Assembly (NCBI GenBank): GCA_017380575.1
Contig: JAFODS010000010.1
Coordinates: 1 to 63,052, forward strand
DNA: 63,052 nt
From: Clostridia bacterium
Lineage (GTDB): Bacteria > Bacillota > Clostridia > Oscillospirales > Acutalibacteraceae
Direction: 5' to 3'
The notes beneath the pieces are model-generated. The model was not told where the DNA came from. It did not search any database and saw nothing but the letters and a program-made list of their open reading frames with translations. Positions 10,212 to 55,609 of this stretch are shown here, piece after piece. Position 1 is the first letter of the stretch; each line of letters begins with the position of its first letter. The position numbers and the translations under genes were made by a program.

Positions 10212-10241
10212 TGTCCGAATAATTACACCCGAATAAAAGCT

Positions 10242-10274
10242 GAAGCTGTTTCACTCAATGAGAGAAACAGCTTC
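10242..10274. terminator. Bidirectional terminator between the sugar operon and the DAHP synthase gene
   Basis: GAAGCTGTTTC (10242-10252) and GAAACAGCTTC (10264-10274) form a perfect 11-bp stem that touches the stop codon of the convergent gene. T-rich sequence follows on both sides. Confidence 0.8.
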
Positions 10275-11303: not shown

Positions 11304-11442
11304 AATATCACCCCTTTGCTGAAAACTTTCAACATCATACATCTTTTGACGGAAAAAGTCAAGAATCGCACCGTCTCCCGAAAAATATTTGCTTTTATTA
11401 TTCTTTTTGATATAATTATTAAAAATATCTCCGGGTGGTTTT

Positions 11443-11928: not shown

Positions 11929-11931
11929 TTC

Positions 11932-11960
11932 TTGACACAAAACTGTTCTGTTGCTATAAT
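11932..11960 (+). promoter_or_regulatory. Consensus sigma-A promoter directly upstream of a terminator
   Basis: TTGACA (11932-11937), exactly 17 bp and TATAAT (11955-11960) match the consensus at every position. It points into a terminator only about 20 nt downstream, so any product is a very short RNA of about 45 nt (about 11967-12012). Confidence 0.65.
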
Positions 11961-11981
11961 TTCCGTAAAAGAAAGCATACA

Positions 11982-12013
11982 AAAAAGGATGGCTGAGCCA
12001 TCCTTTTTATTTT
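11982..12013. terminator. Terminator between the GNAT gene and the C1 peptidase gene
   Basis: AAAAAGGATGGC (11982-11993) and GCCATCCTTTTT (11997-12008) form a perfect stem with a TGA loop. The symmetrical A and T runs let it work in both directions. Confidence 0.9.
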
Positions 12014-12025
12014 TAGCTTTAATTT

Positions 12026-14359
12026 TTATTTGTAAGGAACAGGAATGAATGTCAGTAAAAATTCAAACAACTTCTCAATCCAGTTTTTGATGAAATCAAA
12101 AATATCTGTCTTTATTTCATTTGATGTATCGTCTGCATTTACCTGTATTTCAACATCAACAATCTCCTGTTCAATCTCCTCTGTTACAGGTGTCTGATCA
12201 ATGAGGGTAACATATTCAATATAAGCCGAAGATGTTTCAAGAAGAACCTCAGGCGATTTTGACTGATCAACTGATGAAAGCAAAATTCCTGCCTCGTTAA
12301 GAAGTGCAACGTCCGTTTCGTCAACCATACCGTCGTGGTTACAGTCAGCCGCCATATATGCAACTGTGCCGATATTTTCTTCAGTCAGTATTGAATTCGC
12401 CAAACATGAAACAAGCACAGCATCCTGACCGTCATACCAGGAGTCACCGTTTGTGTCACCGTAAATCAGAATTGTGAATTCTCCAACCACGGTATCGCCG
12501 TTTTTAAGCGTTGCCCTTGTTCCCGTACCGAGCTTACCTTCAGAAGAATCGTAACTCCAGGTGTAATCGGAATTGAGGACTGTTATGTAATTTTCAAGTG
12601 AGCTTTCACCTGCGTTGATGCCTGAAATAATTCCGCTATCGGTGTCAAAAACAACGCCTTCTGCCAACTCATATTCTGTTGCAGGTATCGCTTCTGTTTC
12701 TACTGCTCCGCAATTGTTGCATATACGTGATTTTGAACCCGGCTTTGAAATTGTAGGTTCATCAGTCACCTGCCACTCACCGAAGCTGTGGCCTGTTGCA
12801 GGAACGGTATTTTCGCTGAGCACTTTGTTACACTGTGTGCAGACCGTTTTTTCGAAACCGTCCTGTGTGCAGGAATGCTCACCCGACTGCGTCTGCGGCT
12901 GATGGTCACAGACAGTCCATGGTTGTATAAACGCATTTTTCAAATCCCAACTGCCGCTGTTGTATTCCTCGGAAGGTACCCATTTAGAAGAGCTATAAAC
13001 ATAGGTTTCGCCGTTACTTGAATATCCGTCACCGTTTTCAAACGGAATCCATGAACCATTCAGGCACATTGAAACAGCAAATTTACTACCTTCTTTAACA
13101 GCAACTTCCTGAGGCAAATCAATCACGTGATAACCCGCTTTTTCAACTGTTGTTTCAAATGTTAAACCCAATGTACCCGATCCCGGATTATTTACAGAAG
13201 TAAGATCAGTGTAAACTTTAAAAGTAATTGTTACGTTTTCCTCATAGGTATATGTGGCAATAGATTTTATTTTTTCATTTTCTTTTGCACTGAAAACATT
13301 AGCAACCGCTCTGTTTCCGATTCCTATCAAATAATTATAACGGTCACCGTTATAGTTATAGTTTTCGTAATAATCTTCGATAGGTTGTGCAATATACCCT
13401 ATAAAACTACACAGAGTTGCATCGTAGTAAGAAATCCAGAAATATCCTGAATCACCCCACCAGGTATCCCAGCTGTTTTTGCAAAGCCAGGCACCGTTTT
13501 CAGTCGGACGACATTCAGCTTTAAAATTATCTTTGGAGAAGTTATCGTCCCAACCAACAACAGTGATCGCATGGTTAGTTGTTGTTGCGGTGTTGCAGTA
13601 AAAAGCCGCTATTCCCGAATCTGTATAATAACTATCGTCATGATAATAACTGGCTGTTACTGAGCCGTATTCCATAATATGCTGTTTAGTTTCATTTGCT
13701 GTTGAGAGTGTTTCCACAGACTTGATAACAAAACCGCTGTTTGTATTACGACGCTGATCATCGGTATACTTCGGAAGCTTTGGTATATTGTTGTAGTCCG
13801 CCGGATCTACATCCTGCTTGGCAACACCTGCCCAGCGTGACAACGCCTGTGTAACCTTTTGCCAGTTACCGCCCGTCAGGTACGGATTTGCCGTGGTTGT
13901 TCCGTCACCGTAAGCAAGATCTGTCGTGTCAGTAGTGGCACTGTTAATACCAAACCACGCAAGGTGAGATTCAGAAAAATCAACGGTTTCAATCTCTGCA
14001 AGACCTTTACTGACAACCGAGCTTTCAAGTGCACTTATAGCAGAAAATGCCCAGCAGTTTCCCGCATTACCTTGCCATTTAACAGATGTTACAACATCCT
14101 TTGAACGGGAATCGTATGACGACGGGATTGTTGTGCCCGCATCCATTGTGTTGAATGACGGCTCAAATGACAGACTTGTATCTCTTTCAATAATTTTGCC
14201 GTCTTCGTCCACATAAATATTTTCAACATAACCGCCGTTAGAAGAATCTTGCGGAATAACTCTTATAGCATCATTATCCTCAGACAACGCCGATGCCGTC
14301 GGAGCTGCGTAAAAAACAAGAATTGCCATAATTGTAATAATCGCTGTAAACTTTTTCAC
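12026..14359 (-). CDS. Secreted papain-like (C1) cysteine peptidase with a dockerin
   Basis: This is a secreted protein of about 777 residues. It has a signal peptide (1-24), a C1A peptidase domain with Cys102 (GNCWAFSA), His263 (NHAITVVGW) and Asn295 (KNSWDTWWGDSGYFW), and a lectin-like beta domain at about 335-465. A short CxxC-rich repeat region follows (CTQCNKVL, CNNCGAVE), then a dockerin with two calcium-loop repeats (DTNGDSWYDGQDA, DCNHDGMVDETDV), and an unusual hydrophobic C-terminus. The GTG start at 14359 follows GGGGGA. The dockerin would attach the peptidase to a cohesin-bearing surface scaffold. The hydrophobic C-terminal end could be a membrane tether. It is a single gene between terminators. 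Confidence 0.9.
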   Translation of the reverse strand: MKKFTAIITIMAILVFYAAPTASALSEDNDAIRVIPQDSSNGGYVENIYVDEDGKIIERDTSLSFEPSFNTMDAGTTIPSSYDSRSKDVVTSVKWQGNAGNCWAFSAISALESSVVSKGLAEIETVDFSESHLAWFGINSATTDTTDLAYGDGTTTANPYLTGGNWQKVTQALSRWAGVAKQDVDPADYNNIPKLPKYTDDQRRNTNSGFVIKSVETLSTANETKQHIMEYGSVTASYYHDDSYYTDSGIAAFYCNTATTTNHAITVVGWDDNFSKDNFKAECRPTENGAWLCKNSWDTWWGDSGYFWISYYDATLCSFIGYIAQPIEDYYENYNYNGDRYNYLIGIGNRAVANVFSAKENEKIKSIATYTYEENVTITFKVYTDLTSVNNPGSGTLGLTFETTVEKAGYHVIDLPQEVAVKEGSKFAVSMCLNGSWIPFENGDGYSSNGETYVYSSSKWVPSEEYNSGSWDLKNAFIQPWTVCDHQPQTQSGEHSCTQDGFEKTVCTQCNKVLSENTVPATGHSFGEWQVTDEPTISKPGSKSRICNNCGAVETEAIPATEYELAEGVVFDTDSGIISGINAGESSLENYITVLNSDYTWSYDSSEGKLGTGTRATLKNGDTVVGEFTILIYGDTNGDSWYDGQDAVLVSCLANSILTEENIGTVAYMAADCNHDGMVDETDVALLNEAGILLSSVDQSKSPEVLLETSSAYIEYVTLIDQTPVTEEIEQEIVDVEIQVNADDTSNEIKTDIFDFIKNWIEKLFEFLLTFIPVPYK

Positions 14360-14547
14360 AATAAGTCCCCCTTGTCTATACATTGTTACAACTTCAGTCT
14401 ATCATATTCACCACACTTTGTAAAGAAATCAGCTTTGTCCTATCCGTCAAAATATAATGCAGATTTTTGGTGAAAAAAACATACCATTTCCTCACTTAAT
14501 TTGATATAATAAATTTATTAATATTTTTTGTACTGTGAGGAATTGAA

Positions 14548-15642
14548 ATGAGCAAAGAATTACCGCGAACCTATGTACCTTTCAAGGATTGGAAAGAACC
14601 TTCAAAGCAGATTGAATATACAGAAGAAACACCTCTCCTTTCCCCTGACGGAAAGCTCCTCGCAAAAGGTTGGGCAAGACGCAACTACTTTACATACAAC
14701 CGTGACTACGTTAAAACTGGAATTATGAGCCGTAAGGAATGGGACTTTTATACCATTACTGACGGAAAAATGCAGATTCTTGTCAGCTTTGCGAACATCA
14801 ACGTCGGAGGTTACGTAAGCGCAAAAATCACCGACCTTGCAACAGGTGAAGTAATTGTTGATGCAATTCAGTATTTCATCGGTGCAAACAAGCACGTTCC
14901 TCCCGCAAAGGGCGACGTACCTAACCGCTATAAGGATAAAATCGGCAAGGCTGAATTTGACTTTGACACAAGAGAAACCGAGCGTATTCTTAAATACAAA
15001 AAGATGCACAAGGGTAAGCTTTGCGACGTAAACATTAAAATGGATATTCTCCCTGGTTCTGAAAATATTACAACAGTTCTCCCCTTTGATGAGGATGATA
15101 CAAAATATTTTATGACCACAAAGCAGATGTGTATGCCTTGCGAAGGTACTTTCAAATACGGAGATTATGTTTATAAAATCTCAAAGGATACTGCCTTCTG
15201 TTCTATGGACTGGGGTCGAGTGAATACAGTTCATAAAATGGTCTGGTATTGGGGCAGCGGCTCTTTGTACCACTACGACGAAAAGGGTGAAAAGCATCTT
15301 CTCGGCTTTGAAATCACCTGGGCAATCGGAAACGAAAGTCACGCGACTGAAACAGCGATTTTCTACGACGGTAAAGCACATAAATTCGGTGCAATCGACG
15401 TTGAAAAATTCCCCAAAGGCAGATTTATGGAAGAATGGAAGTTTGTTTCGGAAGACGGCAGATTCAATATGACAATGACACCCACGCTTGATAACCACAG
15501 CGACGTAGACTTCAAAGTAGGCAGAATGAACTGTCACCAGGTTTACGGAATCTGGAACGGTGATGTCACACTTGATGACGGAACAAAAATCGAAATCAAA
15601 GACCTTTTCGCTTTCTGTGAATATGTAGAAAACAGATGGTAA
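14548..15642 (+). CDS. DUF2804 family protein
   Basis: This 364-residue protein has no signal peptide. The opening GKLLAKGWARRNYFTYNRD, the central ILPGSENITTVLPFDEDDTKYFMTTKQ (in parts) and the repeated Trp/Gly blocks (MDWGRV, WYWGSG) match DUF2804 proteins, which have a lipocalin/AttH-like all-beta character and no proven reaction. TATAAT-like sequence at about 14505 and GAGGAATTG before the ATG give promoter and ribosome-binding site. It is followed after 16 nt by a truncated sugar-phosphate isomerase remnant with its own ribosome-binding site. Confidence 0.8.
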   Translation: MSKELPRTYVPFKDWKEPSKQIEYTEETPLLSPDGKLLAKGWARRNYFTYNRDYVKTGIMSRKEWDFYTITDGKMQILVSFANINVGGYVSAKITDLATGEVIVDAIQYFIGANKHVPPAKGDVPNRYKDKIGKAEFDFDTRETERILKYKKMHKGKLCDVNIKMDILPGSENITTVLPFDEDDTKYFMTTKQMCMPCEGTFKYGDYVYKISKDTAFCSMDWGRVNTVHKMVWYWGSGSLYHYDEKGEKHLLGFEITWAIGNESHATETAIFYDGKAHKFGAIDVEKFPKGRFMEEWKFVSEDGRFNMTMTPTLDNHSDVDFKVGRMNCHQVYGIWNGDVTLDDGTKIEIKDLFAFCEYVENRW

Positions 15643-15819: not shown

Positions 15820-16692
15820 ATGAAAAATTCATTTAAAAGAATCTTCGCGGTTATTCTCGCAGTTGCAATTTGTTTTGCAGTTATGCCTGCAACTTTTGCT
15901 GCAGGCGTTCGCGGAGATGCAAACAACGACGGAAAAACAAACTCCTCGGATGCACTTCTGATTTTGCGTCACGCTGTCGGTTATGCTGACAAAGAGTTTG
16001 ACAAGAAAAGAGCAGACCTTAACAACGATGGAATTGTCAACTCTTCGGATGCTCTTCGTGTTTTACAGATTTCGGTCGGTCTTGACAATCCGACATCATA
16101 TTCAAAAAATGAAGCCATTCAGTTCTATGCAGATGCTTTTGATTCATTAGCTAAAGGTAAAGTGAAGGTTTTATACAGAACACGCTACACATCAAAAGCA
16201 GTCAACGACAAGAACGCTAAGGATTCTGTAGGAATTGATGAACAGGGTGACGAGCTGACCGTTACATTTGAAAACGGTTACAATAAAGCAACGGGTTCAA
16301 TTTCTGAATTCTGCCCTGATGCCCACATAGATCCGAATCTTGTTAAAACTGCAACCGTTACAAAGAAAGACGCGTCAACATATACAGTAAAAATTGTATT
16401 GGTTGCCGACACAGCAAATTCTAAGGACTATATACCGCGTAAGATTTACCCGTACCTTCTTAACTATGCAGACTGTTCAGCAAGTGCATTCGACAATTAT
16501 TATGTAACAGAAGCAACGGCATCGTTCCCTGCTTCAGAAATAACTGCAGTGGTTAAGGACGGTTGCCTCAAGGAGCTTACCGTTAATGTACCGTTTGAAA
16601 TGAAAATGAATCTTTCAAGCGAGGATAAAAAGACCACCAAGGATGTTACCGAAAAAGGAAACATTACTGACGTATACAGCTTCACTTTCTGA
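15820..16692 (+). CDS. Secreted protein with an N-terminal dockerin and unknown C-terminal domain
   Basis: This 290-residue protein has a signal peptide (about 1-28, ending ATFAAG). A dockerin follows directly, with two calcium-loop repeats (DANNDGKTNSSDALLILRH at about 33-51 and DLNNDGIVNSSDALRVLQ at about 66-83). The remaining 190 residues form a beta-rich domain I do not recognise. An N-terminal dockerin is less common than a C-terminal one. An AAGGAAGA site precedes the ATG. It probably docks to a cohesin scaffold at the cell surface. Confidence 0.85.
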   Translation: MKNSFKRIFAVILAVAICFAVMPATFAAGVRGDANNDGKTNSSDALLILRHAVGYADKEFDKKRADLNNDGIVNSSDALRVLQISVGLDNPTSYSKNEAIQFYADAFDSLAKGKVKVLYRTRYTSKAVNDKNAKDSVGIDEQGDELTVTFENGYNKATGSISEFCPDAHIDPNLVKTATVTKKDASTYTVKIVLVADTANSKDYIPRKIYPYLLNYADCSASAFDNYYVTEATASFPASEITAVVKDGCLKELTVNVPFEMKMNLSSEDKKTTKDVTEKGNITDVYSFTF

Positions 16693-19290: not shown

Positions 19291-19818
19291 TTATCTTATT
19301 TTTTCTGCAATTTTCAGTATCTTCACTATCGGTATTACCAAGAGTGCACAGAAGAAGTTGCTTATGCCGTGAATAAGGTCAAAATACAGTCCTGAGCCTA
19401 TCCACAAAAGCATAGCCTTAAAATCAAGACCCATAATGAGTGCCTGACACGGAGCATAAAGTATTCCGTACAAAAAGCCGTGAAGAGCACATATAACCAT
19501 ATAGACGATTGGCTTTACCTTTTCGGGTATATTCTTCGGCAGAAGCATAACCGCTGCCCAGAGCACTGTCCATATATAAAGATATGGCAACCACCATGTT
19601 GCAAATCCTGAAATAAGTCCCGTAACAAACACAAAAATATATATGGGATAAAGTGCTTTCCTTCTGTAAACTACCGTAAACGCTACTATAAATGTGCCTA
19701 TAAGATGTATATTCGGAAGCAAATCCATAAGCACCTTGGAAGCATACATCAACGCGCCAAGCATAGCGAAAATTGCAACTTCTTTTACCGTAAGCTTACT
19801 TCTGCGGTCTGAATGCAT
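19291..19818 (-). CDS. ECF transporter S component, probably for a corrinoid or precursor
   Basis: This 175-residue integral membrane protein has about six helices. LTVKEVAIFAMLGALMYASKVLMD at the N-terminus has the small-residue AxxxA surface by which S components contact EcfT. LIMGLDFKAMLLWIGSGLYFDLIHGISNFF is the conserved last third. It captures a vitamin and works with an EcfA-A'-T module encoded elsewhere. It is translated from within the end of the DUF4430 lipoprotein gene (23-nt overlap) and shares its cobalamin riboswitch, which is the reason for proposing a B12-type substrate. The substrate is inferred from regulation, not from binding-site residues. Confidence 0.8.
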   Translation of the reverse strand: MHSDRRSKLTVKEVAIFAMLGALMYASKVLMDLLPNIHLIGTFIVAFTVVYRRKALYPIYIFVFVTGLISGFATWWLPYLYIWTVLWAAVMLLPKNIPEKVKPIVYMVICALHGFLYGILYAPCQALIMGLDFKAMLLWIGSGLYFDLIHGISNFFCALLVIPIVKILKIAEKIR

Positions 19819-20254
19819 AGGTCTGTCCCTCGGTAATTTCCGTCTGATCTACACCCGTAAGAGCGTATCCTCCGTTTTCGTAGAAAGCCCAGTACAAGCC
19901 GTCCTTATCGTAGTCAAGAGTTGTTCCGTTTACGGTCTTTACATAAAGTCCGTAAGGGCCGTCTTCACCTTCGATTATTCCCTCAGCCATAAGAGCCTTG
20001 CCGACGGTGTCCTCGTCCGAATGAACCTCCCACTTTGTTTCCTTGCCCTCTTTATCCTCAGCAATAAAGAAGAACTTCTTTTCACCCTGACCGATTACCT
20101 CGGGGGTTTCGGAAACATCTGAACCTGTTGTTTCAGGTGAAGTGGTTCCTGTTGTGTCTTTGTCCGTACATCCAATTGTAAAAAGTGATATGGCCGCAAC
20201 AATCACGATACAAAGGATTATGGACAAAATTCTTTTAAATTTTGTCTTTTGCAT
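19796..20254 (-). CDS. DUF4430 (transcobalamin-like beta domain) lipoprotein
   Basis: This 152-residue protein starts with a lipoprotein signal peptide ending in FTIGC (Cys at about 29), then a Thr/Ser-rich linker, then a DUF4430 domain (about 57-150). Residues typical of the family are TVGKALMAEGII, GPYGLYVKTVNG and WAFYENGGYALTGVDQTEI. DUF4430 is the bacterial counterpart of the small beta domain of transcobalamin and intrinsic factor. It is transcribed behind a cobalamin riboswitch and overlaps an ECF S component gene, so I infer a surface receptor that hands a corrinoid to that S component. Confidence 0.85.
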   Translation of the reverse strand: MQKTKFKRILSIILCIVIVAAISLFTIGCTDKDTTGTTSPETTGSDVSETPEVIGQGEKKFFFIAEDKEGKETKWEVHSDEDTVGKALMAEGIIEGEDGPYGLYVKTVNGTTLDYDKDGLYWAFYENGGYALTGVDQTEITEGQTYAFRPQK

Positions 20255-20335
20255 AATTTTTGCATCTCCTATAAAATTTTATTCCTCTCTCTGAGTAAAA
20301 CTCAAACCGGCACTCGCAGTTAAAAAAGAGAGCTT

Positions 20336-20494
20336 TTGTCAGGCGGATATTTCGACTCGGTGCATTTCCTTCACCTTCTCGGTTTTATCCAATGGCTTGT
20401 CCCTGATTTGCGGCATCAGGCAAGAAAGAAACCTTTTTTTGCACCTCACGGCGACGGGCTCGTACAGGATTTTCACCTGTTTCCCCGCAAGACA
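20336..20494 (-). promoter_or_regulatory. Cobalamin riboswitch upstream of the DUF4430/ECF S unit
   Basis: On the minus strand the core reads GCGGGGAAACAGGTG then AAAATCCTGTACGAGCCCGT and CGCCGTGA, the conserved GGGAA...GGTG...AATCC...GCCCG.CGC.GTGA pattern. A later AGCCATTGG ... ACCGAGAAGG block fits the variant B12-box/P6 region. TGTCTTGCGG at the 5' end can pair with CCGCCTGACA at the 3' end as P1. CTCTCT downstream can pair with AGAGAG just before the gene, a plausible expression platform acting near the ribosome-binding site. High corrinoid should switch the two genes off. Confidence 0.88.
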
Positions 20495-20500
20495 TACGGA

Positions 20501-20529
20501 ATTGTAGCATATAAAACAAGCGTTGTCAA
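20501..20529 (-). promoter_or_regulatory. Sigma-A promoter of the riboswitch transcript
   Basis: On the minus strand TTGACA (20529-20524), 17 bp and TACAAT (20506-20501) start transcription near 20494, immediately at the riboswitch 5' end. Confidence 0.8.
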
Positions 20530-46643: not shown

Positions 46644-46663
46644 TCTTTGCCTGAATAACAGTG

Positions 46664-46697
46664 AACTCCCGTAGATTTTTCTGCGGGAGTTTTTTTG
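46664..46697 (+). terminator. Second terminator after tRNA-Gln
   Basis: AACTCCCGTAGA (46664-46675) pairs with TCTGCGGGAGTT (46680-46691), followed by TTTTT. It insulates the B12 locus from the tRNA transcript. Confidence 0.85.
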
Positions 46698-46755: not shown

Positions 46756-46784
46756 TTGAAAATATATAATAATTGTGCTATAAT
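46756..46784 (+). promoter_or_regulatory. Sigma-A promoter of the B12-riboswitch operon
   Basis: TTGAAA (46756-46761), 17 bp and TATAAT (46779-46784) place the start near 46791, just before the riboswitch P1 strand. Confidence 0.82.
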
Positions 46785-46804
46785 GTACAAAATTTAATAC
46801 TGAA

Positions 46805-46987
46805 ATAAAGAGATACGGTTTTGAAAAGTTGTAAGCTGAGTAGATTTAATAGGGAAATCAGGTTCGAATCCTGAACAACCGCCATTACTGTGTAGGAATT
46901 GAAAATCAGATTAATGTCTGCATTTCTGCGGTTATAATCTGCTTTGATATCTGTTCCTTAAGTCAGAACACCTGCCGTGTCTTTTTA
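46805..46987 (+). promoter_or_regulatory. Cobalamin riboswitch of the capture/ECF operon
   Basis: The core AGGGAAATCAGG (46851-46862), TTCGAATCCTGAAC and CCGCCATTACTGTG follow the conserved GGGAA...CAGGT..AATCCTG...GCC.CCGC.ACTGT pattern. AGTCAGAACACCTGCC (46961-46976) is a near-perfect B12 box. AAAGAGATACGG (46807-46818) can pair with CCGTGTCTTT (46975-46984) as P1. Two terminator hairpins follow before the first gene, so corrinoid binding should stop transcription of the whole operon. Confidence 0.92.
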
Positions 46988-47013
46988 GGTTCAACACAAC
47001 TTTGGTGAGAAGA

Positions 47014-47063
47014 GTGCAACCGATTTATCGTAGTATGGTAGATTTTGGATTGCGTTCTTTTTT
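47014..47063 (+). terminator. First hairpin of the riboswitch expression platform
   Basis: GCAACC (47016-47021) can pair with GGATTGC (47047-47053) with a bulged A, inside a longer imperfect stem, followed by GTTCTTTTTTATTTT. Confidence 0.55.
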
Positions 47064-47111
47064 ATTTTGTGCAGTCCGAAGTTATTGTTGTCGTACCGCG
47101 TTAATCTGTTG

Positions 47112-47153
47112 TACTCTTTTGACCTTTTTGGTTGAAAGGGTATTTTTTATTTT
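47112..47153 (+). terminator. Second terminator hairpin directly before the first gene
   Basis: TACTCTTTTGACC (47112-47124) pairs with GGTTGAAAGGGTA (47130-47142), including G-U pairs, followed by TTTTTTATTTT. The ribosome-binding site of the next gene starts within a few bases. Confidence 0.7.
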
Positions 47154-47171
47154 GTAAAGGAGGTTTGACAA

Positions 47172-47453
47172 GTGACATCAGAAGAGAAAAAGTGCTGGGC
47201 GGCAGAACTTTTGAAAAGAAAAGCTGAGGAACTCGGAAGATTGCCCAAAAAGGATGATTTTGATGAACCCACACGGTCACGAATCAAAGCCTACCTCGGA
47301 CCGTGGCCAAGAGCATTGGAAGCTGCCGGATTAAAAGAAGCGAAACCTGTTCCTGTAAAATCAAAAAAGAGAAAAAGGGCAACTATCAGGTCCAAAAACC
47401 AAACCGTTTCTGCACGACAGAAGTTGGAGAAACACAGAACCGAACCAAAATAA
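47172..47453 (+). CDS. Small protein with a homing-endonuclease-associated repeat, possible DNA-binding
   Basis: This 93-residue basic protein has a GTG start at 47172 after a perfect AAAGGAGG. Residues about 16-54 (KAEELGRLPKKDDFDE ... IKAYLGPWPRALEAAGL) match the homing-endonuclease-associated repeat, a short helical DNA-binding-type unit. The rest is a Lys/Arg-rich tail. It is the first gene behind the riboswitch terminators and lies 54 nt before the large secreted protein gene. It might be a regulator or a relic of a mobile gene; no nuclease domain is present. Confidence 0.65.
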   Translation: MTSEEKKCWAAELLKRKAEELGRLPKKDDFDEPTRSRIKAYLGPWPRALEAAGLKEAKPVPVKSKKRKRATIRSKNQTVSARQKLEKHRTEPK

Positions 47454-47506
47454 CAGGATACTTTCGGTTAAAACAAAATGAAAAATATAAAAAAGGAGAT
47501 TCAATA

Positions 47507-50287
47507 ATGAAAAAGCGAATTTTAAGCGTTATTCTTGCCATCGCAATGCTGCTAACAGCAACACCCCTTATGTCTGTTGCATCAGAAAGCGAATATGTTT
47601 ATATGTCTGTAAGCTATGATGATAAATATATAAATGATAAAAACGGTACACCTATTGCTTATATTCCCGTATCCTTTGAAACACTTAAATCTATTGATTT
47701 GAATGAATACGGTCTTTCTGAATATCTCTATGATGAAGACGGTGACGGTAAATATGATATTACCGCCTTACAGCTTATCATCTATGCTCACGAAGAGCTT
47801 TACGGTGGCGATTGGAGCGAGATAACTTTTACAGGAAGTCCCGGAAGCTCATATTTTGCAGGCGGTCTTTTCGGCAGAGATGAAAATCTTAACTATTATC
47901 TGAATGGTCAGTATCCTCTTGCAAGCGCGGGTTGGGGTGCAACTTCTGACCAGATTGTTCTTGAAGCAGGCGACTTTATTGACCTTGCAGGCTTCACAAG
48001 CTGGGATTTTTATCAGGACTCGGCATACGGCTTCCATTATTTTGCTGATGCAAACGGTGATGTAACACATTCTTACACCGCAGAAGCAGCCAAGGCTTGT
48101 GATATCAAGCTTATTAAAGGCACAAAGGACTACGAATACAATTCTGTTTTCCTTGAAATTCCTGATTACGAAGTACATTACGGTAAAGCACTCTATAACG
48201 AGACAGGAAGTGTTACAACTGATGACAGCGGTTGTGCATCAATCACATTCCCCTCTGCAGGAAAATGGTATCTTTGGGTTGATGGCGGTTACGGTAACGA
48301 ATATGCCGGCTCAATCGTTTCTGCTCCCGGCTATGCAGAGGTAACAGTTACATCAGCGGAAGCTGACCATCAGCCTCAGGATGTAAGCGCTGTGCTTAAT
48401 GCTACAATGGCACAGCTTGCTGATACAATCAAAGAACCCGCTTTTGGAACAAATGCAGGTGAATGGACAGTATTGAGCCTTGCACGTGGCGAATATTTTG
48501 AAAAGAACAGCACATATTTTAATGATTACTACAACCGTATTGTTTCAACAGTAAATGAAACAGCTTCATCGGTTAATATGAACGGTGCACTCCACAAAAA
48601 CAAATCAACTGAAAATTCCCGTCTTATTGTTGCTCTTTCATCTATCGGTAAGGATGCAACTTCTGTGGGTAATTGGAATCTTGTTGAAGCATACAGCCTG
48701 AACGGTTTTGATTGGATTAAAAAGCAGGGTCTTAACGGTACGATATGGGCACTTATCGCTCTTGACTCAAACAATTATGAAATCAGTGATACTACACTCC
48801 GTCAGAAGTGTGTAGATGAAATTCTTGCAAGACAGCATAACGACGGCGGTTGGGCTTTGTCTGCAAATCTTGACTATGCATCAGACCCTGATATGACGGG
48901 TATGGCACTTCAGGCTTTGTATCCTTACCGTAATCAGACAGCTGTAGCTGAAGCATGTGAAAAAGCATTTGATTGTCTTTCAGAAATGCAGCACGAAAAC
49001 GGCACATTTGCATCGGGCGGAAGCGAATGCTCTGAAAGCTGTGCGTGGGTAATCGTTGCCTGCACAACATGGGGTATCAATCCCGACACAGACAGCCGTT
49101 TTGTAAAGAACGGAAAATCTGTTGTTGACGGACTCTTAAGTCATTATCTTGAAAGCGAAGCGCAGTTCCAGCATATCGTTGGTGCAGGTGCAAACGGCAT
49201 GGCTACTGACCAGTCCTGCTACGCTCTTGTTGCTTACAAGCGTTTTATACATAACAAAACAAATCTTTTTGATATGTCTGATGTTGCATTTGATGAAGAT
49301 ATTGAAATCATTCCCGGCAAGATGACAGCAACTCTCGGTCTTCCTGCTGAAATATCCGATGAGGTCGGCAAAACTTTCAACGCAACAATCAGCATTGACC
49401 AGTGGGATAATAACGCAGGCTACAAGCTTATTGATTTTATTATGAATGTTCCCGAAGGTCTTACCGTTACGGCAGTTACAGCCGAAAGCCGTCTTTCGGG
49501 CGGAACGGTAAATTACAACGTTGAAGAAAGCACAGGCAAGCTCCGTGCAGTTTACTTTGACGCTAACAACCACAGCGATATCACAGTAAGCGGAACCACC
49601 TTCCCGGCACTTCTTTTCACAATTACTTTCCGTGTCGATTCCGTAACTTCAGGCGACAAGCTTGGCTTTAACATCAGCGGAATGTCAGTTAAACTCAATT
49701 CAGATTCTGCAGATGAAAACTCTATGATTATTGTTGACATTACGGATGCAAGCGGTACGGTAAATGTTGTAACAGGTGTTTCTTATAGTGCAATGTGTCT
49801 CTATGTTGGTGATAATGTTGACCTTATCCCCTCGGAGAAAATGGCCGTTGCAGTAGCAGTTGTCGGTGCAAAGGCCGGTGCAAAGCTCAGCTACAACGAC
49901 GGCATCAATGGTTATGAATTCAAGTACAGCACAGAAATCTCTGATAAAACAGGCATTTCAACTTACGTTGCACTTGTTGATTCTTCAATTGATATGGCGA
50001 AGTTTGTTGATAAGCAGAATTTTGTTCTCTCGGATGACAATGCTGATGAAATCACATTCGGTGATGCAAACGGCGACGGAGTAATCAATGCACAGGATGC
50101 ACTCGGTGCAGTTGATTCCTGGCTTCGTAAAACAGATGCACCGTCAGATGACAAGATTCTCGCCCTCAATGTTAACAGCGACAGCAGAATCAATACATTT
50201 GATGCTCTCGGCATCGTTGAAGCGTTTGTAGACGGCAGTGAATACATCGTTGTTACAAAGGCAGCAACTATTACAGCGAACTACTAA
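47507..50287 (+). CDS. Secreted transcobalamin-like capture protein with cohesin-like and dockerin modules
   Basis: This 926-residue secreted protein has a signal peptide (1-27). A DUF4430-like region lies at about 30-150 (TALQLIIYAHEELYGGDW, YYLNGQYPLASAGWG), then a beta-rich linker. An (alpha/alpha)-barrel of the prenyltransferase/transcobalamin kind spans about 295-595, with repeats such as RQHNDGGWALS and MQHENGTFASGG. A cohesin-like beta domain follows (about 603-755) and a C-terminal dockerin (about 848-915) with DANGDGVINAQDALGAV and NVNSDSRINTFDALGIV. The barrel plus a DUF4430 fold is the combination of mammalian B12 binders. ATG 47507 follows AAAAGGAG; the longer open frame upstream overlaps the preceding gene. 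Corrinoid binding is inferred from domains and the riboswitch. Confidence 0.85.
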   Translation: MKKRILSVILAIAMLLTATPLMSVASESEYVYMSVSYDDKYINDKNGTPIAYIPVSFETLKSIDLNEYGLSEYLYDEDGDGKYDITALQLIIYAHEELYGGDWSEITFTGSPGSSYFAGGLFGRDENLNYYLNGQYPLASAGWGATSDQIVLEAGDFIDLAGFTSWDFYQDSAYGFHYFADANGDVTHSYTAEAAKACDIKLIKGTKDYEYNSVFLEIPDYEVHYGKALYNETGSVTTDDSGCASITFPSAGKWYLWVDGGYGNEYAGSIVSAPGYAEVTVTSAEADHQPQDVSAVLNATMAQLADTIKEPAFGTNAGEWTVLSLARGEYFEKNSTYFNDYYNRIVSTVNETASSVNMNGALHKNKSTENSRLIVALSSIGKDATSVGNWNLVEAYSLNGFDWIKKQGLNGTIWALIALDSNNYEISDTTLRQKCVDEILARQHNDGGWALSANLDYASDPDMTGMALQALYPYRNQTAVAEACEKAFDCLSEMQHENGTFASGGSECSESCAWVIVACTTWGINPDTDSRFVKNGKSVVDGLLSHYLESEAQFQHIVGAGANGMATDQSCYALVAYKRFIHNKTNLFDMSDVAFDEDIEIIPGKMTATLGLPAEISDEVGKTFNATISIDQWDNNAGYKLIDFIMNVPEGLTVTAVTAESRLSGGTVNYNVEESTGKLRAVYFDANNHSDITVSGTTFPALLFTITFRVDSVTSGDKLGFNISGMSVKLNSDSADENSMIIVDITDASGTVNVVTGVSYSAMCLYVGDNVDLIPSEKMAVAVAVVGAKAGAKLSYNDGINGYEFKYSTEISDKTGISTYVALVDSSIDMAKFVDKQNFVLSDDNADEITFGDANGDGVINAQDALGAVDSWLRKTDAPSDDKILALNVNSDSRINTFDALGIVEAFVDGSEYIVVTKAATITANY

Positions 50288-50297
50288 CTGATTATTA

Positions 50298-50324
50298 AGG
50301 GGTGGGACTGACACTCCCACCCCT
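50298..50324 (+). other. Strong intercistronic hairpin
   Basis: AGGGGTGGGA (50298-50307) pairs perfectly with TCCCACCCCT (50315-50324). There is no T-run, and the next ribosome-binding site (AGGAGA) begins four bases later. It may protect the 3' end of the upstream message or cause partial termination, giving more capture protein than transporter. Confidence 0.6.
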
Positions 50325-50339
50325 CTTAGGAGAATGAAT

Positions 50340-50966
50340 ATGAGCAAAAGTAAATTGGAACCGAAAACAAAAAAGAGAATAAAAATTGGTATCTCAATCG
50401 GCGTTTTACTGCTTTTGTTGATACTGATTCTCCTTTTTTCATTCTGCGGTGAAAACCCGTTCGGCAAACCTACACTTACAATAGAAACTCCGCAGAAAAT
50501 CAGCCTTTCCGAAACAGATGAAATCACCCTCGACGTGACAATATCATCTTTCGGTGAAGCTATATATCCTGCTGCAAGTATGAGCATTGTTTTTGACCCA
50601 TCAAAGCTTGAGTTTATAGGTATAGAAGAAGGTAACGTTTTTATCCGTAATGACGGCGAAGAGATTGAGCAAAGACTGCCGGACTGGAGCTGTAACCCGA
50701 CTCAATGCAACAAAACGGGTAAAATAAACATTATGTACCTTGACACAACAGGCGGAAAGAATGCTTTTGACAAAGACTTGCTTGCAAAGGACGACAATGT
50801 TGTGCTTCGCCTGAAATTCCGTCTCAGAGGAAGTCTTCGCAAAGGTGATGTATGTGACCTTGTTTTCGAAGATGCTGTTTTTGCAGCATCAGACGAAACA
50901 CAAAGTCTGGCAATGACAACCGGTACACTTAATGTCAGAAACAGCAAAATTGTTATAGGAGATTAA
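50340..50966 (+). CDS. Membrane-anchored cohesin-like protein
   Basis: This 208-residue protein has a short basic cytoplasmic start and one strong helix (about 18-38). A cohesin-like beta-sandwich (about 45-205) follows, with MSIVFDPSKLEFIGIEEGNVF, INIMYLDTTGG and VVLRLKFRLRG, the strand pattern of type I/II cohesins. The orientation puts the domain outside the cell. ATG 50340 is chosen because AGGAGA sits seven bases before it; ATG 50334 is too close. It is the natural anchoring partner for the dockerin of the preceding gene's product, but the pairing is unproven. Confidence 0.75.
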   Translation: MSKSKLEPKTKKRIKIGISIGVLLLLLILILLFSFCGENPFGKPTLTIETPQKISLSETDEITLDVTISSFGEAIYPAASMSIVFDPSKLEFIGIEEGNVFIRNDGEEIEQRLPDWSCNPTQCNKTGKINIMYLDTTGGKNAFDKDLLAKDDNVVLRLKFRLRGSLRKGDVCDLVFEDAVFAASDETQSLAMTTGTLNVRNSKIVIGD

Positions 50967-50967
50967 A

Positions 50968-52098
50968 ATGAAAAGAATAATATGTTTAATATTAGCCTTA
51001 GTGCTTCTTATGACAACTACAGCCTGCAGTGGTAATTATGCACAGGTTAACCTTAATGAACCCATAGCTATTTCAGAAAACGGGATTGTTGAGAAAAGTG
51101 TTTTAGATAAAATCAGAAACGAGAACGCTATCGCCACATTCACAGGTTCATCAAATGACATTAAATACGAATGGACTGTTTTCGGCAGTGACATCAATGA
51201 AACAAAGGATGTAAATTTATCCGTTGTCCTGAACAAATCAGACAAAGGCATAAAGGTCACTTTTACCGAAACGAAGGATTTTGGTTTTCCTGCACTGCTT
51301 TCTATTCATATCAACGAAAAATGGTCAGCAGACAGTGCAACCGCTTTTAACGGTGGCAAGGGTGTTTATTCTGTTTCTGTAACAGGCAGTAAAACAAGTA
51401 TTCTGAATATATCTGTAAACAAGATTGTTTCTGAAATTGAAATTCTGCCTGATGAAACAAATTATACAGAAGACACTACTGCAGAAAATACAAATCCGAC
51501 AGAAAACGATTCTTCAGATACTACAACCACCAACGAAAAAGACAATTATCTTTCAGGTGCACAGAGCTCTGGTGACAGAGTTTATTCTGACGGTACGGCA
51601 ACAGAAAAAGATAAATATGAAACAGACCCCGTACCCGAAGGAAAGCCTATGCCCGTTGAGCCTGAAAATCAGGAAATCAACAACAAAAAGACATATACCT
51701 GCACCTTTTCCATTGAATGCTCAACAATACTGAATAACCTTTCTGACCTTGACCCTGATAAACGTCATCTGGTACCTTCAGACGGTGTTATTTTACCGCC
51801 TACAAAGGTGACATTCTATGAAGGTGAATCAGTCTATGATGTGCTTCAGCGTGTTTGTAAGGAAAACAACATACATATGGAATCCTCATGGACTCCTGTT
51901 TATAACAGTGCCTATATTGAAGGCATAAACAATCTTTATGAATTTGACTGCGGTGAGCTTTCAGGATGGATGTACCGTGTTAACGGATGGTATCCCAATT
52001 ACGGTTGCTCCCGTTATCAGCTTGCAGACGGTGAAAAAGTGGAATGGCGTTATACATGTGACCTCGGCAACGATGTCGGTCGTGAAGGAACTTGGTAA
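50968..52098 (+). CDS. DUF4430 lipoprotein, putative corrinoid-binding
   Basis: This 376-residue protein has a lipoprotein signal (lipobox TTAC, Cys at about 20). A beta-type domain covers about 30-150, then a Thr/Glu/Asn-rich linker (about 160-240). The C-terminal DUF4430 domain (about 243-376) has VTFYEGESVYDVLQRVCKE, NNLYEFDCGELSGWMYRVNG and YQLADGEKVEWRYT. The domain corresponds to the transcobalamin beta domain. It starts one base after the cohesin-like gene and is followed by EcfT, so it probably delivers substrate to the ECF transporter from the outer face. Confidence 0.85.
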   Translation: MKRIICLILALVLLMTTTACSGNYAQVNLNEPIAISENGIVEKSVLDKIRNENAIATFTGSSNDIKYEWTVFGSDINETKDVNLSVVLNKSDKGIKVTFTETKDFGFPALLSIHINEKWSADSATAFNGGKGVYSVSVTGSKTSILNISVNKIVSEIEILPDETNYTEDTTAENTNPTENDSSDTTTTNEKDNYLSGAQSSGDRVYSDGTATEKDKYETDPVPEGKPMPVEPENQEINNKKTYTCTFSIECSTILNNLSDLDPDKRHLVPSDGVILPPTKVTFYEGESVYDVLQRVCKENNIHMESSWTPVYNSAYIEGINNLYEFDCGELSGWMYRVNGWYPNYGCSRYQLADGEKVEWRYTCDLGNDVGREGTW

Positions 52099-52103
52099 AA
52101 TTT

Positions 52104-52994
52104 ATGAGAGATTCATTTTCAGAATATCATCCTTTTATAAACTTAATATATTTTGCATTTACGATAAGCTTTTCTCTTGTGCTGACGCACCCGTTGGCAC
52201 AAGGGATTTCACTCATGTGTGCTGTTATTTATGCAGTAAGTATAAACGGGAAGAAAAGTGTGATATTTCTCTTGAAATACTGTCTGCCGATGGTGCTTCT
52301 GACTGCATTTATCAACCCTGCATTCAATCACGAGGGTGCAACAACTCTGCTGTATTTCCCGAATGGCAATCCTCTTACGCTTGAGAGTATTTTGTACGGT
52401 TTTTCTGCAGGTGTGATGATAATTACAACGCTGATGTGGTTTTCGTCGTTTAACAGAGTGATGACAACGGACAAGTTTATCTATCTTTTCGGCAAGGTTA
52501 TTCCTGCCTTATCTCTTGTTCTTAGTATGTCTTTAAGATTTGTTCCTAAATTCAAATCGCAGATGCAGACTGTCACCGAAGCACAGAGAAGCATCGGCAG
52601 AGATGTTTCAAACGGAAGTCTGTTCCAGAGAACAAAGACGGCAATTCACATCTTTTCAATTATGATAACCTGGTCACTCGAAAATGCCATTGAAACAGCT
52701 GACAGTATGAAAAGCCGCGGATACGGATTAAAAGGCAGAACTGCATTTTCAATTTATCGCTTTGATGAAAGAGATAAATATACACTTGCATGGCTTTCTT
52801 TCTGTGGATTGTTTCTTGTTGCAGGAACTATACTTAATGCTTTCGGGTTCAGATATTTTCCGGATATCCGCTATGCCGCATTTGATATGACAACAATACC
52901 TTTCTATTGTGTATATTCCGCACTTTGCATTACACCCGTGATATTAAACTTAAAGGAGGAGAGAAAATGGAAAACTTCAGTTTCAGAAATGTAA
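52104..52994 (+). CDS. ECF transporter T component (EcfT)
   Basis: This 296-residue membrane coupling protein has five or six helices. LTHPLAQGISLMCAV lies in the N-terminal third. The coupling helices carry the short Ala-Arg-Gly-type motifs as EAQRSIGRDVSN and DSMKSRGYGLKGRTAF, the latter being the classic SRGYG block that grips the ATPases. ATG 52104 is preferred over TTG 52092. The 3' end overlaps the next gene by 28 nt. It joins the two ATPases and the S domain encoded downstream. Confidence 0.9.
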   Translation: MRDSFSEYHPFINLIYFAFTISFSLVLTHPLAQGISLMCAVIYAVSINGKKSVIFLLKYCLPMVLLTAFINPAFNHEGATTLLYFPNGNPLTLESILYGFSAGVMIITTLMWFSSFNRVMTTDKFIYLFGKVIPALSLVLSMSLRFVPKFKSQMQTVTEAQRSIGRDVSNGSLFQRTKTAIHIFSIMITWSLENAIETADSMKSRGYGLKGRTAFSIYRFDERDKYTLAWLSFCGLFLVAGTILNAFGFRYFPDIRYAAFDMTTIPFYCVYSALCITPVILNLKEERKWKTSVSEM

Positions 52995-55609
52995 GCTTTG
53001 CATATCCCGAGCAGGAAAACAAAGCTCTCCGTAATATCTCCTTTGAGGTGAATCAGGGTGAATTTCTGATTCTTTGCGGTCCGTCAGGCTGCGGCAAATC
53101 AACACTTCTGCGTCACCTTAAGTCCTGCCTTACACCTCACGGTGTAGTTAACGGTGAAATCCTCTTCGACGGCAAACCGCTGAAAGATGTTGACGAAAGA
53201 ATACAGGCACAGGAAATCGGATTTGTGCTTCAGTCTCCCGAAAATCAGGTGGTAACCGATAAGGTATGGCACGAGCTTGCCTTCGGACTTGAAAGCCTCG
53301 GGCTTGATACGCCGACTATCCGCCGCCGTGTGGCAGAGGTTGCAGCATTCTTCGGTATTGAAAATTGGTTCTATAAGAATGTAACCGAGCTTTCAGGCGG
53401 TCAGAAACAGCTTCTCAGCCTTGCTTCGGTTATGTGTATGAATCCGAAAATACTTGTTCTCGATGAACCTACGGCACAGCTTGACCCTATTGCCGCTTCT
53501 GATTTCCTCGCTCTTCTTGGCAAAATCAACCGTGAGCTCGGTATAACGGTTATTCTTACCGAACACAGACTTGAAGAAGCTTTTCCGTTTGCAACAAGAG
53601 TTATTGTTATGGAGAAAGGTGAAATTATCAGTGATAATTCTCCCGAAAAAGTTGGACTTCATCTTCGTCAAAAGGATAACGGAATGTTCCTTGCTATGCC
53701 GACAGCAATGAGAGTGTGGTCAGGTGTTGAAACAAATCTTCCTTGTCCTCTGACAGTCCGTGACGGTAGTGAGTTCCTGTCTGAAAGAAGCAAAGAAAAA
53801 GCACTTCTTCCCCTTGAAAGGGAAAAAGTGCATACATATACTGACGAAATAACTCTTGAGTGTGATGAAATATGGTTCAGATACGAAAAAGACCTGCCTG
53901 ATGTTATAAAAGGCTTTTCTCTCACTCTGCACAAGGGTGAATTTTATGCAATTCTCGGCGGTAACGGTGCAGGTAAAACAACAACGCTGAAAGTAATTTC
54001 GGGACTTCGCAAGGCTTACCGAGGTAATGTAAAAGCAAACGGAAAAGTCGGAATGTTACCACAGAATCCGCAGGCGCTTTTTGTAAAAAGAACTGTGCGG
54101 GAGGATTTATATGAGGCTCTCAGTAATGTAAAAATCTCAAAGAAAGAAAAGGATGAGCAGGTTTCCCGTGTAGTTGGTCTTTGCTCGCTGACTGACTTTC
54201 TTGACCGACATCCATATGATATTTCAGGCGGTGAACAGCAAAGAACCGCACTTGCAAAGGTTCTTCTTACCGCACCCGATATAATTCTTCTCGATGAACC
54301 GACAAAAGGCTTTGATGCAGAATTCAAAGTAACATTTGCAGATATTATCGGTAAGCTGACAAATCAGGGCGTAACCGTGCTTATGGTCAGCCATGATGTG
54401 ACCTTCTGTGCAGAATATGCACACAGATGCGGTATGTTTTTTGACGGTAATCTTGTCGCAGAAGGCACTCCCCGTGAGTTTTTCTCAGGAAACAGCTTCT
54501 ATACTACTTCTGCAAACAGAATGGCAAGGCATATTATTCCCGAGGCGGTAACGGTTGATGAAATCATTGCGTGCTGTGGCGGAGAAATCAAGAAAAAAGA
54601 AAGTACGGATGAAATAACACCTTTGCCCGAACCTGCCCCGAGAAGTGTAAATTTCAAGCCTGAACCGCTTAAGCTATGGCGAAAAATTCTTGCTGCAGCA
54701 TCAGGGCTTGTTTCATTAGCTGTGTTTTTCTATGCAACAGGAATTACCGATTTATCAGCACTTATAAATTCTTCGGGCATAAGTGAAGCGGGTAAAAACC
54801 AATTATGGCTTTACGGGATTTTGTTTGTTGCTCTTACCGTGTTTATGATTGCAATCGGAAGACGGAGCGAACCGCCGCTTATAGTGCAGACACCGAAAGA
54901 AAAACGGAACTTAAGCAAGCGGACAATTGTGGCATCTGTTGCTATATTGCTCTTTATTCCTCTGACAATATTTGCAGGAATTTTCTATCTCGACAACCGA
55001 CAGTATAACATTGTCGCACTGCTTGTGCTTTTAGAGTGTATGTTGCCGTTTATTCTCGTGTTTGAGGGCAGAAAACCTAAGGCAAGAGAGCTTGTAACGA
55101 TTGCCGTGCTTTGTGCAATCGGAATAGCAGGCAGAAGTCTTTTCTTTATGCTTCCGCAGTTCAAGCCGGTTCTTGCGCTCACAATAATCGCAGGTGTTGC
55201 TTTCGGCGGAGAAGCGGGATTCCTTGTAGGAGCCGTTACAATGCTTCTTTCAAATATGCTGTTCTCTCAAGGGCCGTGGACACCGTGGCAGATGTTTGCG
55301 ATGGGTATTATAGGTTTTCTTGCGGGTGTTCTTTTCAAAAAAGGATGGCTTCGCAGAACACGGGTTTCACTTGCCGTTTTCGGTGCGTTTGCCGCTGTTG
55401 TTATTTACGGCGGAATAATGAACCCGGCATCAATGCTTATGTATTCGTCACAGACAATAACAGTTAAAGCCTTGATGGCATATTACATTTCGGGTCTTCC
55501 TATGGACCTGGTACACGGCTTCGGAACTGTAATATTTATTATGCTCGCTGCCGAGCCGATGCTTGAAAAAATGGACCGTATCAAAGTAAAATACGGGTTG
55601 GTTGAGTAG
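52967..55609 (+). CDS. Fused ECF ATPase-ATPase-S component
   Basis: This 880-residue protein fuses the ECF subunits that are normally separate. ABC domain 1 (about 1-245) has GPSGCGKST (about 37-45), LSGGQKQ and ILVLDEPTAQLD. ABC domain 2 (about 295-520) has GGNGAGKTT (about 330), SGGEQQRT and IILLDEPTKGFD. A linker leads to an S-component-like membrane part (about 575-880) with seven or eight helices and the typical ALTIIAGVAFGGEAGFLVGAVTMLLSN (in parts). ATG 52967 follows AAAGGAGGAG. With the upstream EcfT it makes a complete importer from two polypeptides. Substrate by context and riboswitch is a corrinoid. Confidence 0.92.
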   Translation: MENFSFRNVSFAYPEQENKALRNISFEVNQGEFLILCGPSGCGKSTLLRHLKSCLTPHGVVNGEILFDGKPLKDVDERIQAQEIGFVLQSPENQVVTDKVWHELAFGLESLGLDTPTIRRRVAEVAAFFGIENWFYKNVTELSGGQKQLLSLASVMCMNPKILVLDEPTAQLDPIAASDFLALLGKINRELGITVILTEHRLEEAFPFATRVIVMEKGEIISDNSPEKVGLHLRQKDNGMFLAMPTAMRVWSGVETNLPCPLTVRDGSEFLSERSKEKALLPLEREKVHTYTDEITLECDEIWFRYEKDLPDVIKGFSLTLHKGEFYAILGGNGAGKTTTLKVISGLRKAYRGNVKANGKVGMLPQNPQALFVKRTVREDLYEALSNVKISKKEKDEQVSRVVGLCSLTDFLDRHPYDISGGEQQRTALAKVLLTAPDIILLDEPTKGFDAEFKVTFADIIGKLTNQGVTVLMVSHDVTFCAEYAHRCGMFFDGNLVAEGTPREFFSGNSFYTTSANRMARHIIPEAVTVDEIIACCGGEIKKKESTDEITPLPEPAPRSVNFKPEPLKLWRKILAAASGLVSLAVFFYATGITDLSALINSSGISEAGKNQLWLYGILFVALTVFMIAIGRRSEPPLIVQTPKEKRNLSKRTIVASVAILLFIPLTIFAGIFYLDNRQYNIVALLVLLECMLPFILVFEGRKPKARELVTIAVLCAIGIAGRSLFFMLPQFKPVLALTIIAGVAFGGEAGFLVGAVTMLLSNMLFSQGPWTPWQMFAMGIIGFLAGVLFKKGWLRRTRVSLAVFGAFAAVVIYGGIMNPASMLMYSSQTITVKALMAYYISGLPMDLVHGFGTVIFIMLAAEPMLEKMDRIKVKYGLVE

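Follow-up and report, generated by a model that had tools for sequence, protein, structure and literature searches.

The stretch of DNA analysed here, hereafter the window, comprises 63,052 nt of contig JAFODS010000010.1 from the genome assembly GCA_017380575.1 of a Clostridia bacterium, and our subject is an operon within it (46756–55609) in which a cobalamin riboswitch (RF00174) is followed by the genes for P0, P1, P2, P3, EcfT and an EcfA-EcfA'-EcfS fusion, all features lying on the forward strand. Such an operon had been claimed at this place in a preliminary description made from the sequence alone, and its presence was confirmed by Rfam and Pfam scans of the window. We consider it probable (roughly 75%) that it encodes a corrinoid-scavenging system, in which the secreted protein P1 would be docked on the anchored protein P2, corrinoid would be caught and then handed off by the lipoprotein P3, and import would proceed via an energy-coupling factor (ECF) transporter.

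The operon begins with a sigma-70-type promoter (TTGAAA-17-TATAAT, 46756–46784), for which a consensus scan gave 11 of 12 matches and a TG ahead of the second hexamer. It is followed by a cobalamin riboswitch aptamer (46799–46993; 50.8 bits, E 1e-9, gathering threshold 31.5) that matches RF00174 over its full length (model positions 1–189 of 189), so that both elements were found as previously proposed. The subsequent expression platform (46985–47155), recognised by folding and a terminator scan, forms a single long hairpin (z −6.3; none of 200 shuffles was equally stable) with a terminator-like stem at 47111–47143. The "tandem terminators" claimed earlier were not recovered, as the scan gave only this one site between riboswitch and genes, another one being located upstream of the promoter (46663–46692).

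P1 (47507–50287) has 926 amino acids and, by eye, a signal peptide, which according to Pfam and a predicted model is followed by N-terminal beta domains, an alpha/alpha barrel, a cohesin-like domain, a beta domain of ~92 amino acids and a dockerin. The preliminary description had likened the barrel to that of transcobalamin. An alpha/alpha barrel is indeed present in the predicted model (residues 285–597, 48359–49297), but transcobalamin was not singled out, as squalene-hopene cyclase outscored it in the fold search. The Prenyltrans toroid match reached 21.3 bits, under its cut-off of 26.5, and PF01122, which we take to be the eukaryotic cobalamin-binding family, was not among the five Pfam families that matched P1 at E ≤ 1. 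Complement C3 and alpha-2-macroglobulin, the top Foldseek matches of the whole P1 model, were rejected as a chain of small matches (root-mean-square deviation >30, TM-score ~0.2). The N-terminus had been described as DUF4430-like, which is not recognisable in the window's protein, given that Pfam gave no match there and hhalign against DUF4430 profiles only 3.9% and 25%. Among the related P1 proteins introduced below (loci are numbered with L, genomes with G), PF14478 (DUF4430) was matched by seven of the 20 aligned at E ≤ 0.05, and of six scores examined only that of L029 exceeded the cut-off (28.3 vs 23.8 bits); in the orthologs with a match, DUF4430 precedes the barrel.

The cohesin-like domain of P1 (residues ~602–757, 49310–49777) is, judged by profile comparison, a remote homolog of the P2 cohesin (hhalign against P2 cohesins 92.5%, E 4.8e-7), which agrees with its original assignment. 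It has diverged, with Pfam Cohesin matched by two of the 20 aligned P1 proteins (hmmscan, E ≤ 0.05) and a PDB profile search returning the cohesin 2xdh weakly (E 0.11); Foldseek with the whole P1 model matched the cohesins 4ums, 2xdh and 2vo8, the output giving no matched range. For the ~92-residue beta domain behind it the label X module was considered and dropped, since a PDB search (alignment A11) gave nothing credible. The dockerin claimed for P1 is present at residues 852–901 (50060–50209), with two calcium-type repeats and a PF00404 Dockerin_1 match of 23.9 bits over a cut-off of 22.9 (29.5 bits in a profile search of the whole genome). Dockerin_1 was matched at E ≤ 0.05 by 17 of the 20 aligned dockerin-type P1 proteins, the rows of L017 and L031 ending at contig ends.

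P2 (50334–50966) carries a single cohesin (PF00963 38.3 bits, cut-off 24.1) behind an N-terminal transmembrane segment seen by eye, and we propose, from its sequence, that it is the cell-surface receptor of P1's dockerin. Cohesin was matched at E ≤ 0.05 by all 17 aligned P2 proteins, the window's included, those of L004/L028, L027 and L029 under the cut-off; in a PDB profile search with the P2 alignment the cohesins 5nrk and 5nrm came first, but only at E 0.021. P3 (50968–52098) combines a lipobox seen by eye, an N-terminal beta domain and a C-terminal DUF4430 domain (PF14478 66.5 bits), whose core (residues 286–363, 51823–52056) corresponds to a transcobalamin-like beta domain; PF14478 was matched by all 21 aligned P3 proteins, again including the window's, at E ≤ 0.05. 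Whereas a PDB search with the full P3 alignment (A3) gave nothing at E ≤ 1, a DUF4430-only profile run against 177,635 PDB sequences found transcobalamin-1 as its best match (E 0.0023). For the predicted P3 model, VIA ranks 1–14 and every one of the 17 Foldseek hits at E ≤ 0.001 belong to transcobalamin-family proteins, with haptocorrin, intrinsic factor and transcobalamin nearer than other PDB chains. The modelled beta domain of P3 thus has the transcobalamin-family fold, and with it the membrane-anchored cohesin, the DUF4430 lipoprotein and the suggested likeness of DUF4430 to transcobalamin were all upheld.

The importer was also described correctly. EcfT (52092–52994; PF02361 CbiQ 29.0 bits) is followed by the EcfA-EcfA'-EcfS fusion of 880 amino acids (52967–55609), which contains two ABC ATPase domains (PF00005 200.3 bits in two stretches; TIGR04520 347.6 bits) and matches ECF S families over the Pfam cut-off. 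The best solved relative of its S-component domain (55082–55549) is 6fnp_A (E 1.3e-6, the next E 0.061), a chain named "Membrane protein" in the PDB listing that we infer to be CbrT from the corresponding paper (PMC5997447) and its length. ECF-CbrT (6FNP) of Lactobacillus delbrueckii restores growth dependent on cobalamin and cobinamide, according to the accessible text of that paper (PMC5997447), and the present genes supply the parts of such a transporter: an EcfT, a pair of ECF ATPases and a CbrT-related S component. EcfA-EcfA' and EcfS are fused into a single chain both in L038 and in the window's lineage, and are encoded separately in L029 and in the other loci that have S-layer homology (SLH) domains together with importer genes (L032, L036, L044). 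In the window's genome (88.8% complete) we found nine matches to B12-binding domains, eight of them over the cut-off, and no match to CobS.

Taken together, riboswitch, S domain and the modelled P3 fold make a corrinoid-related role of the operon well supported. Under scarcity of corrinoid, the riboswitch would permit expression; P1 would be secreted and held at the surface via its C-terminal dockerin, bound to the cohesin that P2 may expose outside the membrane on its N-terminal anchor. The P1 barrel, aided by beta domains in P1, P3 or both, could then capture corrinoid in a transcobalamin-like manner. P3 might deliver the corrinoid to the S domain of CbrT type, and ATP-driven import would be powered by the dedicated EcfT-EcfA-EcfA' module. 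A surface complex of this kind, feeding the ECF importer, had already been put forward in the preliminary description and is supported by the riboswitches, the S domain, the P3 fold and the lone dockerins reported below, while the corrinoid binding and the P1–P2 binding within it are what we infer.

To place the operon among its relatives, an alignment of two P1 sequences was run against 84,980 species, each represented by one genome, which yielded 47 loci. As the scan used two short barrel peptide patterns, the sample leans towards barrels that keep these patterns and others were missed; and as near-identical loci (L005/6/10, L007/8/9, L012/13/14) were counted separately, locus counts are not event counts. 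The order P1-P2-P3-EcfT-ECF was found again in the isolate Clostridium sp. MSJ-8 and in metagenome-assembled genomes (MAGs) from, among other sources, the guts of deer, goat and sheep. It is kept at 39% P1 identity in genome G008, whose locus L028, seemingly on the same contig as L004, has its own cobalamin riboswitch (found on L004). Lutispora, Tissierella and Paenibacillus have a barrel protein, a DUF4430 protein, EcfT, EcfAA and EcfS but lack P2. EcfT is located behind P1 in 30 of the 47 loci, and 13 of the remaining 17 end too early to judge. A sequence search for P2 in 150 genomes of the family found three, namely the window's own, that of G008 with the whole operon, and G097, whose match (E 4e-4) was rejected as a different protein of 356 amino acids; the system is hence rare in that sample.

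RF00174 or RF01482 was detected upstream of the P1 gene, 3 to 1,518 nt ahead of the open reading frame, in 28 of the 38 loci scanned with Rfam (the other nine being L005, L010, L016, L017, L025, L028, L045, L046 and L051). These 28 include L050, whose barrel gene is present only in part, and L021 and L042, where the riboswitch is >1.3 kb off. Three of the ten loci without a match (L014, L019, L035) have less than 460 nt of contig upstream, and L020 shows a sub-threshold RF00174 match (22.6 bits), which, together with an unrelated small RNA family in L038, was all that Rfam gave at a relaxed threshold in L023, L047, L020 and L038. Orthologous operons under riboswitches of other specificity were looked for, and the only other class listed was a thiamine pyrophosphate element in L022, ~9.7 kb upstream of P1 with two RF00174 matches in between. 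In Clostridium sp. MSJ-8 (L029) the same operon is preceded by the adenosylcobalamin class RF01482 (8967–9101, 81.5 bits).

The question arises whether P1 and P2 form a pair of their own. A dockerin that serves a cellulosome implies other dockerins in the same genome, and dockerin and cohesin searches were therefore run genome-wide in 21 genomes of the 47 loci. In eight of these (G156, G159, G161, G162, G163, G164, G168 and G170) the dockerin of P1 was the only one at E ≤ 0.02, and in G166 (L027) there was none. Lone dockerins were assigned to P1 by their position beside P2, or, in G168 and G170, by inspection of the contigs. When the search was repeated at E ≤ 1 in the nine genomes that had no more than one dockerin, the eight with a lone dockerin yielded two further matches, neither of them credible (15.5 bits with internal stops; 13.2 bits spanning 17 positions). 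At E ≤ 0.05, the cohesin matches comprised only P2 or P1's own domain in seven of the eight, G161 showing one additional weak match (19.4 bits). Among 14 named control genomes, dockerins were matched in two at E ≤ 0.02 and in nine at E ≤ 1, with two over the cut-off both times, and cohesins in two, one of them over the cut-off. Since P1's dockerin stands alone and adjoins the P2 cohesin in eight of 21 genomes, the P1–P2 pair needs no cellulosome, and the sequences suggest that the two proteins bind each other; these lone dockerins are the strongest evidence in favour of docking.

A second line of evidence concerns the way in which P1-like proteins are retained. SLH domains (Pfam) were present in 15 of the 17 scanned P1-like proteins of non-dockerin type (L032, L033, L035–L045, L049, L051) and were not found in L034 and the contig-cut L048; the scan covered neither L046 and L050 nor the first of the P1-like proteins in L033. 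P2 had no blast match in any of the 15 SLH loci, though some of them end soon after P1, while, of the 24 fetched dockerin-type loci with contig sequence beyond P1, all but L030 and L047 have P2 behind P1 (L009, L017, L025 and L026, which end at or soon after P1, were left out). On a 28-row tree of EcfT and EcfAA, three changes are needed to account for the three anchor labels (minimum 2), as compared to a mean of 9.2 after shuffling the labels, with none of 200 shuffles as low as three; without L030, two changes suffice. In this tree the cohesin/dockerin locus L028 pairs with the SLH locus L038 (99% SH-aLRT), and the placement of L029, on a long branch, is unsure. The simplest reading of these sequence data is that one catcher–importer system changed its mode of surface retention. 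We lean towards the view that the cellulosome-free cohesin–dockerin pair is a dedicated calcium-dependent receptor for a transcobalamin-like catcher, which would have replaced S-layer anchoring within one importer lineage and on which P1 may also form chains.

Several observations weigh against this interpretation and have to be considered. With respect to the pair, 12 of the 21 operon-bearing genomes have 3 to 106 dockerins at E ≤ 0.02 among the matches listed. Seven of the eight lone-dockerin genomes are MAGs of unstated completeness, so that dockerins may have been overlooked, and in the eighth, the isolate G168 (Clostridium sp. MSJ-8), the P1 dockerin (21.9 bits) and the P2 cohesin (22.4 bits) are just under the cut-offs. 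Furthermore, P1 of L027 has no Pfam dockerin match, P1 of L030 has a dockerin without P2, and in L047 a dockerin P1 has SLH-type neighbours, no P2 and no riboswitch that could be found. The latter locus (9266–15476) encodes a barrel/cohesin/dockerin protein (37.2, 40.9 bits) accompanied by one DUF4430-SLH and one barrel-SLH protein (SLH recognised by eye), and seems to be an intermediate with both anchors in one cluster. With respect to corrinoid, the predicted P1 barrel fits terpene cyclases better than transcobalamin in fold comparison; the Rfam scan gave no riboswitch in six loci with upstream sequence (L023, L034, L038, L041, L047, L048); and the stretches fetched for L034, L042, L045 and L046 showed no importer gene, which counts against a fixed link of barrel and importer.

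Among the alternatives, the one that survives best, although it is doubtful, is that the dockerin of P1 binds the cohesin-like domain of another P1, giving chains on P2 or shed polymers. P1's own cohesin-like domain could indeed partner its dockerin: both modules occur in P1, the homology of the cohesin-like domain to the P2 cohesin makes such chains possible, and in the genome search of G156 a cohesin in the frame of P1 scored over the cut-off (24.9 bits). The domain is, however, so far diverged that its contact with dockerins may be lost, and the conserved P2 would be required merely as an end cap.

A role of P1 as a cellulosome-like accessory, with its dockerin plugged into a general scaffoldin and P2 anchoring dockerin enzymes in general, is unlikely in our opinion. 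In its favour, besides the dockerin-rich genomes and L030 mentioned above, the window's genome has 26 dockerin matches that exceed the cut-off by themselves, P1's among them, and encodes a further protein whose cohesin passes the cut-off and which itself bears a dockerin. Yet dockerin enzymes on a scaffoldin of the same genome are not what we found in the eight of 21 genomes that hold no other credible dockerin, and the P1 dockerins form a separate group. That of the window is 56–100% identical to 17 P1 dockerins elsewhere vs 23–41% to 25 dockerins of its own genome (the cut rows of L017 and L031 excluded), and its repeats read NAQDAL/NTFDAL vs NSSDAL in many other dockerins of that genome, at positions that, as in cellulosomes, may decide the choice of cohesin. 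Two other dockerin proteins are encoded in the window (12026–14383 on the reverse strand, by eye resembling a papain-like protease, and 15820–16692 on the forward strand), and they belong to the separate dockerin system of the genome.

Less probable still is an enzymatic function of the P1 barrel, either terpene-cyclase-like or glycan-active, with incidental B12 control. Its best fold matches are to squalene-hopene and drimenyl diphosphate cyclases, with glucuronyl hydrolases likewise ranking above transcobalamin. Against this, P1 is predicted to be secreted, and several families of bacteria have the barrel protein together with DUF4430 and importers of CbrT type. In addition, the conserved DPDMT stretch has M, V or I at its fourth position in 20 of 20 rows, which would speak against catalysis if it stands at DxDD, a motif that we assume to mark cyclases and to correspond to this stretch. 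Import of something other than corrinoid, for instance cobalt or a different cofactor, is very improbable: cobalamin riboswitches also govern cobalt ECF importers, for example cbiMNQO of C. difficile (PMC11477304, in its accessible part), but 6fnp_A is the one convincing solved relative of the S domain, and the predicted P3 fold is that of corrinoid carriers. P1 as cellulosome cargo, as an enzyme or as part of a cobalt importer was in each case weighed and set aside.

Two further features of the window deserve mention. The small open reading frame P0 (47172–47453, forward strand), absent from the preliminary description, encodes a protein with an HNH_repeat, a homing-endonuclease-associated repeat (PF18780 49.6 bits). 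It is conserved and placed between riboswitch and P1 in many related loci, and the proportion of non-synonymous differences (pN) was below that of synonymous ones (pS) in eight of eight comparisons, pS being near saturation in three of these; the presence of a DNA-binding-like protein within a B12 operon is puzzling. On the reverse strand, a parallel system starts with a second cobalamin riboswitch (20325–20529; RF00174 42.9 bits), the two being the only RF00174 matches of the genome at E ≤ 0.1 and both located in this one window. It is followed by a small DUF4430 lipoprotein (19796–20254; PF14478 24.3 bits, cut-off 23.8) and a stand-alone CbrT-like S component (19291–19818), which had no Pfam match at E ≤ 0.05 and for which 6fnp_A was the sole solved relative at E ≤ 10 (E 6.6e-4).

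How does the operon compare with known systems? In the case of ECF-CbrT, the CbrT gene sits, as far as the accessible text goes, in an nrdJ-cbrS-cbrT-pduO cluster, and the word lipoprotein does not occur in the main text of the paper (PMC5997447). The window operon shares with ECF-CbrT a related S component, EcfT and two ATPases, and differs in that its S domain is fused to both ATPases and encoded in an operon of its own. A lipoprotein tied to cobalamin ECF transport, as we propose it for P3, exists as an annotation, which we take to refer to the DUF4430 family. Its name, "Additional lipoprotein component of putative cobalamin ECF transporter", occurs in PMC9963975, which also reports a DUF4430 protein of unassigned function beside an rtpR gene; a barrel protein, cohesin or dockerin is not mentioned in the accessible part of that source.

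A clear likeness to transcobalamin, haptocorrin and intrinsic factor lies in their C-terminal beta domain of DUF4430 fold, which was recognised here in P3. In contrast to the barrel-then-beta arrangement in one chain of these proteins, the parts are here spread over P1 and P3, the order is reversed in those P1 proteins with a DUF4430 match, P1 has no PF01122 match, and the system is bacterial and presumably cell-anchored. With cellulosomal and non-cellulosomal cohesin–dockerin proteins the operon has cohesin and calcium-type dockerin modules in common; 2vo8 and 2w1n in the Foldseek list of P1 are cohesins of C. perfringens glycoside hydrolases, and putative cohesin/dockerin adhesins have been described in sulfate reducers (PMC10553843, in its accessible part). 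The window operon differs from these in having one dockerin and a membrane-anchored monovalent cohesin, and in that its cargo is a putative vitamin catcher rather than an enzyme or an adhesin. Capture of B12 at the surface has a counterpart in the DUF4465/BtuJ1 proteins of Bacteroides, which, according to the accessible text, bind B12 tightly and are used for scavenging by gut bacteria, but which consist of a beta-jellyroll domain found mostly in the FCB group; the main text of that paper (PMC13398666) contains none of the terms DUF4430, dockerin, cohesin and ECF. In a search that lacked most subscription journals and preprints, we found no paper on cohesin–dockerin docking in vitamin uptake and none on bacterial catchers made of barrel plus DUF4430, and neither of the DUF4430 sources PMC4350170 and PMC9963975 is, in its accessible part, a study of such a system.

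Corrinoid competition shapes gut communities, and to our knowledge the capture of B12 outside the membrane of Gram-positive bacteria is poorly understood. While the CbrT-type importer and the annotation name of the cobalamin ECF lipoprotein are known parts, the operon as a whole suggests a two-step capture of B12 using folds that animals employ. It further gives lone cohesin–dockerin pairs outside cellulosomes a testable job and provides a clear case of an anchor swap, between SLH and dockerin/cohesin, in which cargo and importer stay.

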